64,000 bases of DNA from positions 186,001-250,000 of the forward strand of contig NZ_LT699727.1 in the NCBI RefSeq assembly GCF_900155395.1, given 5' to 3'. Position 1 is the stretch's first letter; each line of letters begins with the position of its first letter. This document shows positions 9,350 through 58,716 of the stretch, in pieces. The stretch is from Merdibacter massiliensis. GTDB lineage: Bacteria; Bacillota_I; Bacilli_A; Erysipelotrichales; Erysipelotrichaceae. The notes beneath the pieces were generated by a model. That model was not told the DNA's origin, searched no databases, and worked only from the letters and a program-made list of their open reading frames with translations. Both the position numbers and the translations under genes were made by a program.

Positions 9350-10533
9350 ATGTTTCTTGTCGGAATCGATATCGGTAAACTCTCTCATGTCTTCTGTATC
9401 ATGGATTCGACTACCGGTGAATTTCTTGTCGAACCTGTTTCGTTCAAAAACAATAAACAGGGATTCGATCTTTTAATAAACAAAATCAAATCATTTCCTG
9501 AAAAGAATGTTCTCATCGGAATGGAAGATACCGGTCATTACCATTTCAATCTTTTGAAATTCTTACTCGATGCCGGTCATACCGTTGCCCTGATCAATCC
9601 AGTAACTACCGATATGACCCGTAAAATGCAGCTTGGTGCCACCAAAGATGATAATCTGGATGCCCAGCTGATTTGTGATATTCTGGCTTCCAATCAAAGA
9701 AGAAAGGGTTACCGGATATCAAAAGTCAACAGCTTTGAACTCTATGAACAGAAACGATTGACCCGCGAACATCACGACCTCAAGGAACAGCTGAATGTCT
9801 ACTCCAACAAGCTACAGAAATGTATCGATATCGTGTTTCCTGAATTTAATTCTTTGTTTAGATCCAAATACGGAATCGTTTATATGAATGTGCTGAAAAC
9901 ATTCGGCAGTGCCGATTCTATCGCTCATGCCAATATACGCAGTATCCGTAAATGTTTTGAGACGAATGGAAGAGGCCGTCAGATTGCACTGACACCGGAA
10001 AGGCTGAAGAAGTGGCTAAAAATTCGATTGGTTTCCCCTCCAAGGCGGAAGTCATTGAAATGAAACATCTGATTGCCATGATGGAACTGATCCATGAGCA
10101 AATCAGAGAACTGGACAAAAAAATAGAAGAATTCAGCCTGCAACTAAACTCTCCTATCCTCAGCATACCAGGGATTTCTCATTTCTCTGGTACTTCCATT
10201 TTAGCGGAATTAGGAGATTTGCACAACTATTCCACGGCTTCTCAAATCATAAAGTTTGCCGGTGTATCTCCCTACAAGCACAAATCGAGCCAGTATGAAG
10301 CACAACATACGGCCATCACCAAGAAAGGATCGCGCTATTTAAGGAAAACACTCTACCAGGTTATCCTTCCGGTTATAAACTTCAATCCCGTGTTCCATGC
10401 CTACTATCGTCATAAACTGTCACAGGGCAAAGGACATCGATGTGCACAGGGGCACTGTGTAAGAAAGTTATTACGCATCATCTATCATTTGGTAACAACA
10501 AATCAACAGTTTGATTCGGAACTTTTAAGATAA
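9350..10533 (+). pseudogene. IS110-family transposase, frameshifted
   Basis: The first part (9350-10063) is the DEDD catalytic domain, with Asp in GIDIGKLSH, Glu in EDTGHYH and the Asp pair in TKDDNLDAQ. The second part (to 10533) is the C-terminal Transposase_20 domain with the Ser-containing FAGVSPYKHKSS. The two are in different frames: at 9998-10002 the sequence GGAAAGG needs one more A to continue from LTPE into KAEEVAKNSIG. IS110 transposases are normally one chain of about 400 residues and no good slippery heptamer is present, so a one-base deletion (or a homopolymer sequencing error) is the simplest reading. AAAGGA stands 12 bases before the ATG. Confidence 0.88.
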
Positions 10534-13268: not shown

Positions 13269-13964
13269 ATGAATAAAAATACTGTTTATCGTTTTTTTCT
13301 TTTACACGTTGGGATTATTGATCTTGTCCATGGGTTTGACGCTAAATACAAAAGCGGGATTAGGGGTCTCCCCGATCATTTCTGTGCCTTACAGTATTTC
13401 AAATATCTTCTATTTCAATTTTGGAAATGCGACACTGATTTATTATTGTTTTTTTGTTATTCTGCAACTCCTATTGCATAGCTTTTACATCAAAAAAGCG
13501 GCAATAAAAACGACAACAAACTAATCTTGTTGATGGATGTTTTACAAATACCGCTCAGTATCATATTTACTCGATTTTTAAATATCTTTGCTTTTTTGCT
13601 GCCAGCTTTTTCATCCGATGCGAATGAGCAATTACCGATTCGTCTTCTCGTCCTTTTTTTCGCAATCGTATTTACAGGTGTAGGAGCAGCTATGTCGCTT
13701 TCGATGCGATTAGTTCCAAATCCAGGAGATGGCATCGTACAAGCAATCGCCGATGCGATACATAAAAGTGTTGGATTTACAAAAAATTGTTTTGATCTGT
13801 TAAATATTTCGATCACGATTTGTTTGAGTCTTTTGATTGCCAATCAAATTGTAGGAATCGGCATTGGTACACTGATCGCAATGATCGGTGTCGGGCGGAT
13901 CATGGCTCTCTATCATCATTTTACGCAGAAAAAGATCAGTAAACTGACGAATCTAGTTTATTGA
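13269..13964 (+). pseudogene. YczE/YitT-like membrane protein, two frameshifts
   Basis: Integral membrane protein of unknown function, about 230 residues when the frames are joined, with five or so hydrophobic segments (SMGLTLNTKAGLGVSP near the N-terminus, VPNPGDGIVQAIADAIHK in the middle). The N-terminal dozen codons are in one frame, the middle in a second and the C-terminal two thirds back in the first. Two single-base changes explain this: an extra T in the run of seven at 13292-13298 and a missing A in the run of six at 13492-13497. Compensating indels, both in homopolymers, could be true decay or consensus errors. The stop is one base from the stop of the convergent gene. Confidence 0.75.
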
Positions 13965-13965
13965 T

Positions 13966-15207
13966 TTAATAAGTTTGGACAGCAAAATGGAAATTGGTTT
14001 CTTTCATCAGCTCTAAAAACGGCATCGGATCAAATGCTTCTAATGAGTAGACGCCTGCCTGATGATAAATATCTCTTGCATACAATTCAATGGCAATGGC
14101 AGCTCCAAATCCTGTTTGAGCAACAACTGCCTGCAAGCCAAACTGCTGCATTGCTTCTTCCTGTGAAAATTTCTGATACATCATCACTTTTTTCTCTTTT
14201 CCATCTTTTTGTCCAATGGCATAGACGCCGACAATCATATTGCCGGCCATTTTTGTTTGCTCGCTCGGCTGAGGTGCGCAGGCTGCAATAACATCTCTTG
14301 GTACGACCATCGTATCTTTTACCTGAACAGGTTCGATTGAGTTTAAATGGAGCTTATCCAATACCTTTAGTGCCTGAATCAAGTTTTCATCTAGTGCAAT
14401 CTTAAAACTGCAGCGCTTCAAACCATACTGTGACAAATATCTCGGCATCGTTACTGTTTCTTCATGTTCTACCTTCACCAAAGTATTCATGCCTGCTTCC
14501 GGCATGCAAAACTGCTCTTCACCGGCAAATGCTTTTTCTACGATATATCTCCCATCTATATATTCAACATTGGGATTCATCACTTCATCTAATACGGTCC
14601 AGACATTAAAACCAAATACGATATCCTCCGGATCAGATTGCAAAGCATGAAGATCTCCTCCATCTTTTACATGCAGTTCCTGTACCCGGTCAAATTCATA
14701 TGCGCATAAGTATTTGGCAAATACATTTACGACACCTGGATCAATGCCTAGACAGATCAAAGCCATGTTTCCTTGTTTTTTCCATTGTTCATGACGGTCA
14801 AAATGATAAGCAGTCATGACTTCATCATAACTATTTTCGATTCCCTCTCCATAAGCCGGTACTTTCTTAGGTACAGACCAAGTACCTAAATTTGCATAAT
14901 CTGCCTTTGCCTCAAATGCTGCATCAAAAATATAGTTTGCACAAAAAGGACTAGCCGCATCCAAAACAAACGTGATCTGGTGTTCCTTCATCAAATCAAC
15001 CATTGCTTGCTTGTCTGTCGCATCTAGTTTTGCGCATGCAATACGCGTGTCGCTGCAATCTGCCTGAATCTTTTCTGCATGTCTGATATCAATATCACAT
15101 AACAATGCGTAAGCAAACCACTCTTTCTTGGGATCGCGTTTTAACAGCTGTTTGACGATACAGTGTGCGACGGCACCGGATCCTACGACCATCATTCTCA
15201 TTTTCAT
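13966..15207 (-). CDS. saccharopine dehydrogenase-like oxidoreductase
   Basis: NAD(P)-dependent oxidoreductase of the saccharopine / carboxynorspermidine dehydrogenase fold, 413 residues. The Rossmann motif is at the N-terminus (MMVVGSGAVAHCIVKQL) and the family motif CLGIDPGVVNVFAKY is near residue 155. The start at 15207 has GGAGG seven bases upstream; an earlier in-frame ATG would overlap that site. Members join or split amino acids through secondary amines (lysine or polyamine metabolism). No polyamine decarboxylase or lysine gene is nearby, so the substrate is open. It is expressed behind a tandem glycine riboswitch and terminator (15233-15445), an unusual pairing that suggests glycine or a related amine affects its substrate supply. 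Confidence 0.85.
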   Translation of the reverse strand: MKMRMMVVGSGAVAHCIVKQLLKRDPKKEWFAYALLCDIDIRHAEKIQADCSDTRIACAKLDATDKQAMVDLMKEHQITFVLDAASPFCANYIFDAAFEAKADYANLGTWSVPKKVPAYGEGIENSYDEVMTAYHFDRHEQWKKQGNMALICLGIDPGVVNVFAKYLCAYEFDRVQELHVKDGGDLHALQSDPEDIVFGFNVWTVLDEVMNPNVEYIDGRYIVEKAFAGEEQFCMPEAGMNTLVKVEHEETVTMPRYLSQYGLKRCSFKIALDENLIQALKVLDKLHLNSIEPVQVKDTMVVPRDVIAACAPQPSEQTKMAGNMIVGVYAIGQKDGKEKKVMMYQKFSQEEAMQQFGLQAVVAQTGFGAAIAIELYARDIYHQAGVYSLEAFDPMPFLELMKETNFHFAVQTY

Positions 15208-15232
15208 CTTCCTACCTCCTGGCATTTGAATA

Positions 15233-15270
15233 CAAAAAAAGAAGAAAAATGCTGCTGCATTTTATCTTCT
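15233..15270 (-). terminator. riboswitch expression-platform terminator
   Basis: On the minus strand a long stem (arms 15257-15270 and 15240-15252, one bulged base, four-base loop) is followed by seven or eight T. It ends about 25 bases before the start codon at 15207. Confidence 0.8.
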
Positions 15271-15445
15271 TTGTCCCTTTACCAGTTGGTTATATCCACG
15301 TAGGTGATACATATTCGTATTCTCTCCAAAGAGCTGTCAGCCAACCTTCCTTTTGCCTGCTAGTTTCCGCTTTTGATCCAAATGCAGATATCAAACAGCT
15401 TGCTGCTTCGGCCCTATATCCAGTGTCTAAAGTTGGCGTCATCCA
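15271..15445 (-). promoter_or_regulatory. tandem glycine riboswitch
   Basis: Read on the minus strand. Aptamer 1 has its closing helix from GCCAACTTT (complement of about 15429-15437) and AAGGTTGGC (complement of about 15338-15346), with the conserved core pieces GCCGAAGC (15405-15412) and CAGGCAAAAGGA between. Aptamer 2 follows the usual linker with TTTGGAGAG (complement near 15322-15330), CACC near 15303-15306 and TGGTAAAGGGAC (15273-15284); CTCTTT and AAAGGG can form its closing helix. The order and linker resemble the two-aptamer gcvT leader of Bacillus. Glycine riboswitches usually activate glycine-cleavage genes when glycine is bound. Confidence 0.8.
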
Positions 15446-15464
15446 ATTCAATTTTTGTATGTTC

Positions 15465-15493
15465 AATGTAACAAAAAATAATCAAAATGTCAA
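15465..15493 (-). promoter_or_regulatory. promoter of the riboswitch leader
   Basis: TTGACA (15488-15493) and TACATT (15465-15470) on the minus strand, 17 bases apart; transcription would start about 15 bases before the first aptamer. Confidence 0.7.
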
Positions 15494-43988: not shown

Positions 43989-44120
43989 ATAGCCCCCTCC
44001 TTAAATATAACACTGTATATTCTATCATAACTTCTATTTCGTGTATAATTTTCTTTTCCAAGATCTGCTTTGCGGATCAAATAGAGTAGAGGGAAGAAAT
44101 TAATCTTCGCCCCTCTCATT

Positions 44121-44152
44121 GCACCGTACGTACGGGTCTCGTATACGGCGCT
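44121..44152 (-). ncRNA. group II intron domain V
   Basis: On the minus strand AGCGCCGTA pairs with TACGGTGC (eight pairs, one G-U) around a short distal stem; the catalytic AGC is at the 5' side. Domain VI follows with GAGAGGG pairing to CCCTCT. Confidence 0.8.
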
Positions 44153-44173
44153 ACATTTATATGTTAATACAAC

Positions 44174-45466
44174 CTATCTTAGATAGTATGCTAGAGGATT
44201 GACCAATCCAGGTCTTTCCTCTTTTCTTATGGCTAGAATATCCGCATTAAGTAAGAAATTAATTACATTCCCATTTGCTTGTTTATATAGGCCAAGCCTT
44301 GTATTCGCTACCGAGTAGAGTTGTTCATCACTGAAGTGATATGGCAATTTCTCATTCAACTTTTGTAGATTTTTATATATCCTCGGTGGTACTTTCCACT
44401 GTTTTAAGATGATGACCCTTATTTTGTGCCTTAACCATTGTCCAAATTCATCGATGAAGTTCTTCATCCTTCCGATTCGAAAGTAGTTTATCCATCCTTT
44501 GACGATTTGGTTTATCCTGGTGAATGTTTTAGCGTTGGTCTGTGCTACACATTTCTTTCGAATGAGTTCCTTTCGACATTTATCATACAGGCTTTTCTTA
44601 CTCTTCTTTGTAGGAATACATTCCCATTTTGATGAGTTCTTCCAGTATGTAAAACCTAGAAAATTACTATTCGTTGGTCGTACTACCTTTGTTTTGGTTG
44701 CACTGACTTTTAGGAATAATTTTCTCTCCAGCCATGATGTGACGGACTTCATCACTCGATTTGCTGCCATCTCGCTTTTAACGAAGATATTACTATCATC
44801 TGCATATCTCACAAAGCATAGTCCCCTTTCTTCCAGTTCCTTATCAAATTTATCTAAGTAAATATTTGATAGAATTGGACTTAGAGGTCCTCCTTGTGGC
44901 ATTCCTATGGCATTTGCTTTGACAAAACCATTTTCCATGATTCCTGCCTGCAGGAATTTACGAATCAAATGCAATGTTGTCGAATCATTCACATGCTCTC
45001 TAAGTATTGAAATTAATTTATCGTGATTTACTGTATCGAAGTATGCTTCTATATCTAAATCGATGACCCATTCGTATCCTTCATTTAAGTAGTCCAGTGT
45101 TCGCAGGATGGCATCATGTGCACTCCTGTTTGGTCGAAATCCAAAACTATTCTCACTGAATTTACTATCATAAATATCTGATAACACTTGAGCTATCGCC
45201 TGTTGGATGACCCTGTCTACTACTGTTGGAATTCCCAGGGGTCTTTTCTTTCCATTTGATTTAGGAATATAGACTCTTCTTACAGGTTGAGGTTTGTATT
45301 TCTTCGCCAGTATCTGTTTCTTTATCTGTTCCCTATAGGCCTTGAAATACTCGTCAATTTCATCCACTGTCATCTTATCAATGCCAGGTACACCTTTATT
45401 ACTTTTGACTCTTTTGATTGCCTCTTCGAGATTTTCATCTCTTAAGATCACTTCGATCAATTTCAT
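44174..45466 (-). CDS. ltrA: group II intron reverse transcriptase/maturase
   Basis: Helps the intron splice and copies it into new sites. RT fingers and palm (RRVYIPKSNGKKRPLGIPTV, then FGFRPNRSAHDA), the active site FVRYADD near residue 220, and the GIIM maturase domain with INQIVKGWINYFRIG. There is no C-terminal endonuclease, typical of class C. The start is taken at 45466 (MKLIEVILRDENL, GGAG ten bases upstream); the frame continues 21 codons further and an earlier start is possible. It is intact, so the intron may be mobile. Confidence 0.93.
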   Translation of the reverse strand: MKLIEVILRDENLEEAIKRVKSNKGVPGIDKMTVDEIDEYFKAYREQIKKQILAKKYKPQPVRRVYIPKSNGKKRPLGIPTVVDRVIQQAIAQVLSDIYDSKFSENSFGFRPNRSAHDAILRTLDYLNEGYEWVIDLDIEAYFDTVNHDKLISILREHVNDSTTLHLIRKFLQAGIMENGFVKANAIGMPQGGPLSPILSNIYLDKFDKELEERGLCFVRYADDSNIFVKSEMAANRVMKSVTSWLERKLFLKVSATKTKVVRPTNSNFLGFTYWKNSSKWECIPTKKSKKSLYDKCRKELIRKKCVAQTNAKTFTRINQIVKGWINYFRIGRMKNFIDEFGQWLRHKIRVIILKQWKVPPRIYKNLQKLNEKLPYHFSDEQLYSVANTRLGLYKQANGNVINFLLNADILAIRKEERPGLVNPLAYYLR

Positions 45467-46005
45467 GTTGTTGCTTCTCCTTCCTTTTGTAAATATATTT
45501 GGAACCATTCCCTCTACCTTCATTCCCATGGGATTACGATTCCCACTTATGGAACTATCCTCGATTTCGAACTATCCAAACATTGCGCATGGTGAGCTGC
45601 ACCATATAAACATTAGGTCCTTGGGTATAGATGTCTCTACCTACTACGACCTCAGCTGACTTCTTGTGGTAAACCTTTTTCGACCGATGTTACCATCACT
45701 GATTTTAAAGATATTGGATTTCATCGTCCACAAGACCTCCCGGGGTAATTCACGAATCCTGTTTCTTTCACAACGTCCTGATTTACTGTCTTGGTTTTAC
45801 GTTTACCTTTTGGACTTCGGTTTGATATGCAACCTTATCCACCATTTAGCCTTATATCCGGTTTCTGTTCGTACGCTCGAAAGAATCGCTACACCACTTC
45901 CTCCATCCTCAACATCACTGTTAACGACTTGTGGTTCGCTACACTTGGCGGTAACTACCTGTGGTTGGCTTATCTCCAACTGAATTCGTGCCATGCCCGG
46001 CACAC

Positions 46006-58543: not shown

Positions 58544-58620
<77 letters not shown>

Positions 58621-58640
58621 TTGAATTTTTATATACAGAT

Positions 58641-58716
58641 GGGGTGTTAGCTCAGCTGGGAGAGCACCTGCTTTGCACGCAGGGGGTCAGGAGTTCGATC
58701 CTCCTACGCTCCACCA
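58641..58716 (+). tRNA. tRNA-Ala (TGC anticodon)
   Basis: 76 bases with encoded CCA. The anticodon stem-loop is CCTGC-TTTGCAC-GCAGG with TGC at 58674-58676. It follows tRNA-Ile by 20 bases on the same transcript. Confidence 0.98.

Follow-up and report, generated by a model that had tools for sequence, protein, structure and literature searches.

A glycine-GGAnGA variant riboswitch ahead of a saccharopine-dehydrogenase-fold gene in Merdibacter massiliensis, with a small amine as its probable ligand

Architecture of the locus

The stretch of DNA analysed here (the window; 64,000 nucleotides of the Merdibacter massiliensis contig NZ_LT699727.1) carries on its minus strand a two-aptamer riboswitch that ends in an intrinsic terminator and is followed by a dehydrogenase gene. 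In the order of transcription, the parts of the locus are:

15465-15493, minus strand: sigma-70-like promoter, TTGACA-17-TACATT, matching the consensus at 10 of 12 positions
15334-15446, minus strand: aptamer 1 with its GGAUGA leader and linker; core UUUAGACA / GGGCCGAAGCAGCAA / GAAACUAGCAGGCAAAAGGA, type A, placed from the RF03166 alignment and the relatives
15269-15331, minus strand: aptamer 2 with a rebuilt core, CACCUACGUGGAUAUAACCAACUGGUAAA, and closing stem CUUUG...CAAAG, placed from the RF03166 alignment and an invariant block
15234-15272, minus strand: intrinsic terminator, its 5' arm reusing the 3' strand of the aptamer-2 closing stem (AAAG, 15272-15269), placed from the fold
15217-15223, minus strand: ribosome-binding-site-like AGGAGGT shortly 5' of the ATG, from the sequence
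13966-15210, minus strand: the controlled gene, ATG at 15210, encoding a 414-aa saccharopine-dehydrogenase-fold oxidoreductase (clade A), from domain, structure and alignment matches

The covariance model of the glycine-GGAnGA family (RF03166) matches positions 15446-15267 of the minus strand over its whole length (1-177) with 134.9 bits (E 9.7e-29), which clears the curated gathering score of 110 bits; seven scanned relatives score 141-156 bits. A genome-wide scan found this to be the sole RF03166 copy in M. massiliensis. The plain glycine model (RF00504) had 0 matches across the whole genome, the same search being positive in 2 control genomes, and a homology search found no GcvT homologue in this genome (completeness 99.85). 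Because the genome has neither an RF00504 match nor GcvT, the element is not an ordinary glycine riboswitch, a candidate that the RF03166 match and the targets of canonical copies (below) also reject; it belongs to RF03166, a rare variant family. The helices of the family covary, with two-sided compensatory changes in 22 of 34 predicted pairs among 38 aligned sequences (window copy included), all of type A and drawn from 65 available; together with the E value of the RF03166 match, this led us to reject a chance match. The preliminary description of this DNA, made from the sequence alone, had named a tandem glycine riboswitch at 15233-15493 and had suggested an Infernal search of the minus strand as its check. 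The span is right, from promoter-like site through RF03166 match to hairpin and U-run, and so is the two-aptamer glycine architecture with its terminator; the family is another one, as the significant Infernal match comes from RF03166 and RF00504 itself gives none. Nor is the second aptamer merely a degenerate copy: its core (AACCAACUGG) has been rebuilt and is strongly conserved, and in both aptamers the core belongs to the variant class.

We presume that RF03166 is one of the glycine-rejecting variants of work from 2017. The literature searched, which did not include that 2017 primary study, contained no identified RF03166 ligand and no printed link between RF03166 and a dehydrogenase. A 2022 review describes glycine-riboswitch variants with mutated cores that reject glycine (PMC9481103), and a further paper names RF03166 only for its score threshold (PMC12452182).

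Folding of 15290-15225 gives a hairpin at 15272-15238 on the minus strand followed by a U-run (-16.7 kcal/mol, z -3.1), so that the terminator described ahead of the start codon stands; it goes unlisted by a simple terminator scan that demands at least 3 G-C pairs. The 17-bp-spaced promoter that had been described is likewise present, with 10 of 12 matches, but about 1 promoter-like site of such quality is expected by chance in a region of this size, and the number found is no better than that. The next gene (13527-13964, plus strand) lies in the opposite orientation and converges on the dehydrogenase gene; the switch therefore controls a single gene, as had been stated. This neighbour encodes an apparently truncated YczE/DUF6198-type membrane protein of 145 aa, of which the relative L076 carries a 238-aa copy in the same convergent place.

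The 3' strand of the aptamer-2 closing stem (CAAAG, 15273-15269) overlaps the 5' arm of the terminator, which begins at 15272. Since the two share a strand, they are mutually exclusive, and by a fold criterion the same reuse of the closing strand recurs in 60 of 64 relatives (exceptions L042, L044, L052 and L082). From this anatomy we predict a transcriptional ON switch. When ligand is absent, the 3' strand of the closing stem would be drawn into the terminator and transcription would stop; when ligand is present, the closing stem would be held, the terminator blocked and the dehydrogenase gene transcribed, the stabilisation of the stem by ligand being supposed from how such switches work.

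Elsewhere the window holds pieces of a group II intron (44081-45924, minus strand; RF02001 with 106.3 bits, RF01998 and RF00029 near their cut-offs), two overlapping open reading frames in different frames that resemble, by eye, one IS110-type transposase (9350-10533, plus strand), and an adjacent pair of tRNA genes (58544-58713, plus strand).

The controlled enzyme and its paralogues

The domains PF03435 (45.4 bits) and PF16653 (69.3 bits), both above cut-off, bear out the saccharopine-dehydrogenase-like NAD(P) enzyme that had been described downstream. Its nearest solved relatives, matched in sequence over full length, are 4rl6, 4ina, 8deb and 8h4z, the last of which we take, on our own reading, to be the Helicobacter pylori enzyme of PMC10413350. 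In that paper 8deb is the Bacteroides fragilis carboxyspermidine dehydrogenase, an activity that 4rl6 and 4ina probably share, and Ser144, Glu188, His228, Glu229 and Glu230 are named for carboxyspermidine dehydrogenase (PMC10413350). A residue-by-residue alignment shows Glu188 and the HEE triad (at 228-230 of 8deb) conserved in the window protein, with Val at 144. The relay position 144 is Val rather than Ser or Thr in the clade-A consensus as well: EHEE occurs in 41/41 clade-A proteins and DPGVVN in 36/41. In all 10 carboxyspermidine-dehydrogenase-like paralogues of the window's order the corresponding features are HHEE and Ser/Thr144 (DPGV(T/S)). The window enzyme scores 137.3 bits against NF043000, below its cut-off of 800; clade A shares a mean identity of 27% with the polyamine-synthesis-type copies; and homologues of nspC (carboxyspermidine decarboxylase) and speE were found in 0 of 64 riboswitch loci, with up to 8 kb of DNA for each. 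Because of these differences in residues, identity, family score and neighbours, we regard clade A, on sequence grounds, as a separate paralogue of carboxyspermidine dehydrogenase with predicted related chemistry. Polyamine synthesis as its role was rejected, given the 0/64 for nspC and speE. A tree (clade A sampled as every second sequence, 41 of 60 rows) resolves clade A, a second riboswitch-associated clade (clade B, below) and carboxyspermidine dehydrogenase as three separated groups with bootstraps of 98 to 100.

The approximately 27%-identical paralogues adjoin spermidine-synthase-like and agmatinase-like genes and mostly also an nspC-like decarboxylase gene (5 of 18 loci read, names by eye); one of these decarboxylases was confirmed by Pfam, and at L154 there is none downstream within the available DNA. 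Among 314 genomes of the window's order, 25 have a homologue at E 1e-15 and 7 have one that is at least 56% identical, 4 of these with the riboswitch and 3 without an Rfam match upstream. Two of the three riboswitch-less genes follow a DeoC-like aldolase gene (one checked by Pfam), the dehydrogenase lying directly 3' of it at L147 (2733-3395, minus strand) and L148. After the controlled dehydrogenase, five loci (L039, L048, L055, L056 and L058) have an arylsulfotransferase-family gene (PF05935, one checked).

A gene for the spermidine/putrescine-binding protein PotD lies within the available DNA of 8 of the 64 loci, a floor because the reach of that DNA varies between loci. It is downstream on the same strand in L033, L038, L056 and L065, divergent in L079 and L091, and upstream in L067 and L068, the last two forming a diverged set (34% identical) that includes a whole transporter; the PotD and PotA assignments rest on family scores.

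Relatives, target genes and two core types

The 64 loci were collected with an exact-match pattern over the aptamer-2 core from 84,980 species genomes; copies diverged in aptamer 2 are missed, since the pattern fixes part of it, and L002, L003 and L004, which share contigs with L035, L076 and L041, were excluded. By record title the loci come from Clostridia, Erysipelotrichaceae, other Bacillota or only a 'bacterium', and a viral collection gave 0 matches to the pattern. The covariance model places RF03166 above cut-off in 4/315 genomes of the window's order and in 2/394, 10/397 and 6/287 genomes of three other groups, from which we conclude that the family is rare. The first downstream gene is a clade-A dehydrogenase in 45 of the 64 (L042 having merely a remnant), an APC permease of one kind (APC80) in nine and of another (APC88) in one, a CDF cation-efflux-like gene in six and a clade-B dehydrogenase in one; two have no listed target, namely L046 and L070, where the DNA ends 157 bases on. 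As a check on pattern bias, 18 covariance-model matches above cut-off, which were collected independently of the pattern and include some of the 64 loci, have 11 clade-A, 1 APC80 (permease) and 6 CDF targets, and all 18 carry AACCAACUGGNAAA.

Several targets show features of their own. The CDF genes (PF01545; L040, L043, L049, L064, L066 and L075) are followed by an SseB gene (PF07179, PF14581) in 5 of 6, where the DNA extends far enough, and the usual D-D/H-D metal site of their proteins looks altered by eye. L046 is a second, type-B copy in the genome that also has L087 (G323) and precedes a Na+/H+-antiporter-family gene and then amidohydrolase genes. At L042 and L134 the riboswitch runs straight into a C-terminal dehydrogenase remnant, as if the target had been deleted.

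The cores fall into two types by a CCUACG/CCAAUG split: type A, with 53 of the 64 and the window copy, and type B, with 11 of the 64, both of which pass the RF03166 cut-off. Type A mostly reads CUAGA(C/G)A, CCGAAGAAGCAA, GGAGAGA and CC(U/C)ACG, and the window copy shows small departures such as GCAGCAA; type B has UGA(A/G)AC or a close form, CCGA(A/C)GCGGAAA in most, GGAAAGA and CCAAUGAGG. The division of target genes follows that of the cores exactly: APC80 and clade-B targets are all type B, and clade-A, APC88 and CDF targets are all type A, a correspondence that host relatedness could partly explain. This split within RF03166 is the part of our analysis most likely to be new.

Type-B operons contain the permease, the clade-B dehydrogenase, a CoA-acylating aldehyde dehydrogenase and a beta-alanyl-CoA:ammonia lyase; Clostridium sp. 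ASF356 is among the carriers. In the seven loci whose DNA extends past the clade-B gene (L034, L045, L051, L074, L080, L085 and L089), the aldehyde dehydrogenase is present in four (L034, L045, L051, where it is cut by the contig end, and L089) and the lyase in four (L045, L074, L080 and L089, where it is split by frame); two have both, and L085 has neither. The best matches of the APC permease are AdiC and basic amino-acid/polyamine antiporters, the SucD-like aldehyde dehydrogenase is closest to the succinate-semialdehyde dehydrogenase 8cei (E 2.5e-132), and the lyase has a full-length match to beta-alanyl-CoA:ammonia lyase 2 (4mtu; E 9.4e-79), with long stretches of near identity. Lysine fermentation, suggested by the NCBIfam 3-aminobutyryl-CoA ammonia lyase model (114 bits, cut-off 160), was dropped, as 4mtu matches far better. 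At the HAHDE motif of clade B, at Glu229/230, HMMER and MAFFT alignments disagree. Among 240 genomes of one family, no clade-B gene was found outside riboswitch genomes; the 2 that have one both carry the riboswitch. We infer that the type-B operon may serve amine import, oxidation to an aldehyde, conversion to an acyl-CoA and loss of the beta-amino group, for which the simplest fitting compound would be 1,3-diaminopropane, passing through 3-aminopropanal and beta-alanyl-CoA.

Canonical glycine riboswitches provide a contrast. Our set comprises 26 weaker matches, 25 from the window's order (L005-L030, minus L015, which was left out for its close contig end) and L137; L010 has no gene in view. 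By N-terminal sequence, 13 precede gcvT and 12 a sodium:alanine symporter gene, which accounts for 25 of the 25 loci with a gene in view (three targets confirmed by Pfam), while the window's target is neither a glycine cleavage nor a glycine/alanine symporter gene but a dehydrogenase. One genome (G899) carries both kinds, a canonical copy (L137; RF00504 69.1 bits) before gcvT and a variant copy (L129) before a clade-A dehydrogenase. L010 (genome G235), possibly a further variant, matches RF03166 with 92 bits; its first aptamer is odd, and the second half of the element fits RF00504 (50.8 bits).

The ligand and comparison with known systems

In dozens of gut bacteria, the genes that these riboswitches control suggest a small amine as the signal in place of glycine. 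We consider it probable that the window element is an RF03166 ON switch whose ligand would be a small amine metabolite, and that the carboxyspermidine-dehydrogenase paralogue would oxidise this metabolite or a close product, so that the switch would induce its breakdown or clearance. Amine chemistry is favoured by the homology to carboxyspermidine dehydrogenases, by the EHEE motif throughout the clade-A sample and by potD genes from two diverged sets; a diamine or beta-amino ligand is favoured by the permease, SucD-like aldehyde dehydrogenase and beta-alanyl-CoA:ammonia lyase of type B. Since the type-B core and enzyme clade differ from those of type A, carrying this chemistry to the window is an extrapolation. 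On our best reading, most weight falls on a small diamine or beta-amino compound and glycine is unlikely; the first candidates would be 1,3-diaminopropane and beta-alanine, then L-2,4-diaminobutyrate and other diamines or polyamines. The preliminary description had hinted at an unassigned glycine-linked reaction, for which we find no support, given RF03166 rather than RF00504, the lack of GcvT and 64 relatives that control non-glycine genes.

Several observations count against a small-amine switch. The CDF and SseB targets (6/64) do not follow from amine oxidation; the potD association concerns a minority of loci, most of them in Lachnospiraceae; descent from a glycine pocket might leave the aptamers with a preference for a carboxylate, an argument for an amino acid and not a pure diamine; of the 7 genomes in the order whose clade-A gene is at least 56% identical, 3 have it without a riboswitch that Rfam detects; and the promoter is supported no better than by chance. 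A more specific proposal, which we advance only tentatively, is that RF03166 comprises two specificities: type A would sense a small diamine or diamino compound and control the carboxyspermidine-dehydrogenase paralogue, and type B would sense a related C3 compound, 1,3-diaminopropane or beta-alanine, and control a catabolic operon (import, oxidation to 3-aminopropanal, beta-alanyl-CoA, then acryloyl-CoA and ammonia).

In one alternative the RNA binds an alpha-amino acid that carries a second amine, for example L-2,4-diaminobutyrate, and the enzyme is a diamino-acid dehydrogenase that forms aspartate semialdehyde. Such a ligand retains the glycine part, clade A keeps the Glu188 position and HEE, and the type-B aldehyde dehydrogenase is closest to a succinate-semialdehyde dehydrogenase; in carboxyspermidine dehydrogenases, Glu188 and Glu229 are thought to place aspartate semialdehyde (PMC10413350). 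We nevertheless judge it unlikely, with the relay Ser144 replaced by Val in clade A and a type-B lyase so close to beta-alanyl-CoA:ammonia lyase that a C3 amine fits better. Sensing of polyamine surplus, with spermidine or norspermidine as ligand, would suit the enzyme family and the potD or potA genes near the switch, and a spermidine variant riboswitch is a precedent (PMC10853860); it is somewhat less likely still, against a pocket derived from that for glycine, loci without nspC or speE homologues and a type-B operon that points to a C3 aldehyde.

Simple drift of an ordinary tandem glycine riboswitch, by now in control of a glycine-linked oxidoreductase, would explain the common architecture, including CCGAAG, CAGGCAAAAGG, GGAGAGA and the GGAUGA leader, and the membership of RF00504 in the same Rfam clan (CL00125). 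Against it, the core changes are conserved rather than drifting (54 of 65 sequences are of the same type), the genome has neither an RF00504 match nor GcvT, the controlled genes differ from those of every canonical copy with a gene in view, and G899 keeps both kinds, each with its own target; we hold it to be improbable. The reverse logic, an OFF switch whose ligand is the product of the enzyme, is compatible with the sequence alone, provided that the ligand promoted terminator formation, but the competition of closing stem and terminator for one strand in 60/64 leaves it the slightest chance of these readings.

Should the two-specificity proposal be true, RF03166 would represent a class of riboswitches that respond to a short diamine or beta-amino acid, and it would mark an as yet unassigned anaerobic route for the breakdown of such compounds in gut bacteria. 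The gene contexts, above all the type-B operon that ends in the lyase, narrow the hunt for the ligand to about a dozen small compounds. Finding that ligand would reveal how a pocket for glycine came to accept a different amine, and two unassigned dehydrogenase clades of gut Bacillota would gain a function.

Set beside known systems, the window element shares with the RF03166 family its two-aptamer fold, its core and a full-length match, and departs from it in nothing; what we add to the family is the tie between its two core types and different target genes. With RF00504 it shares the tandem layout, the leader-linker and the CCGAAG and CAGGCAAAAGG elements, whereas in the variant GGAGAGA of aptamer 1 has become CUAGA(C/G)A, CUCUCAGG has become CUGACAGG, P3 of aptamer 2 is replaced by CCUACGAGGCUAUAACCAACUGG, and the target genes are different too. 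The type-B lyase matches 4mtu at full length, its relatives occurring both within type-B operons and at other places in the same genomes, and not at the window. With the carboxyspermidine/carboxynorspermidine dehydrogenases (8deb, 4rl6, 4ina, 8h4z; NF043000), clade A has in common the fold, full-length homology, the HEE triad and Glu188, and it differs from carboxyspermidine dehydrogenase in Val144, in its 27% identity and in neighbours other than those of polyamine synthesis.
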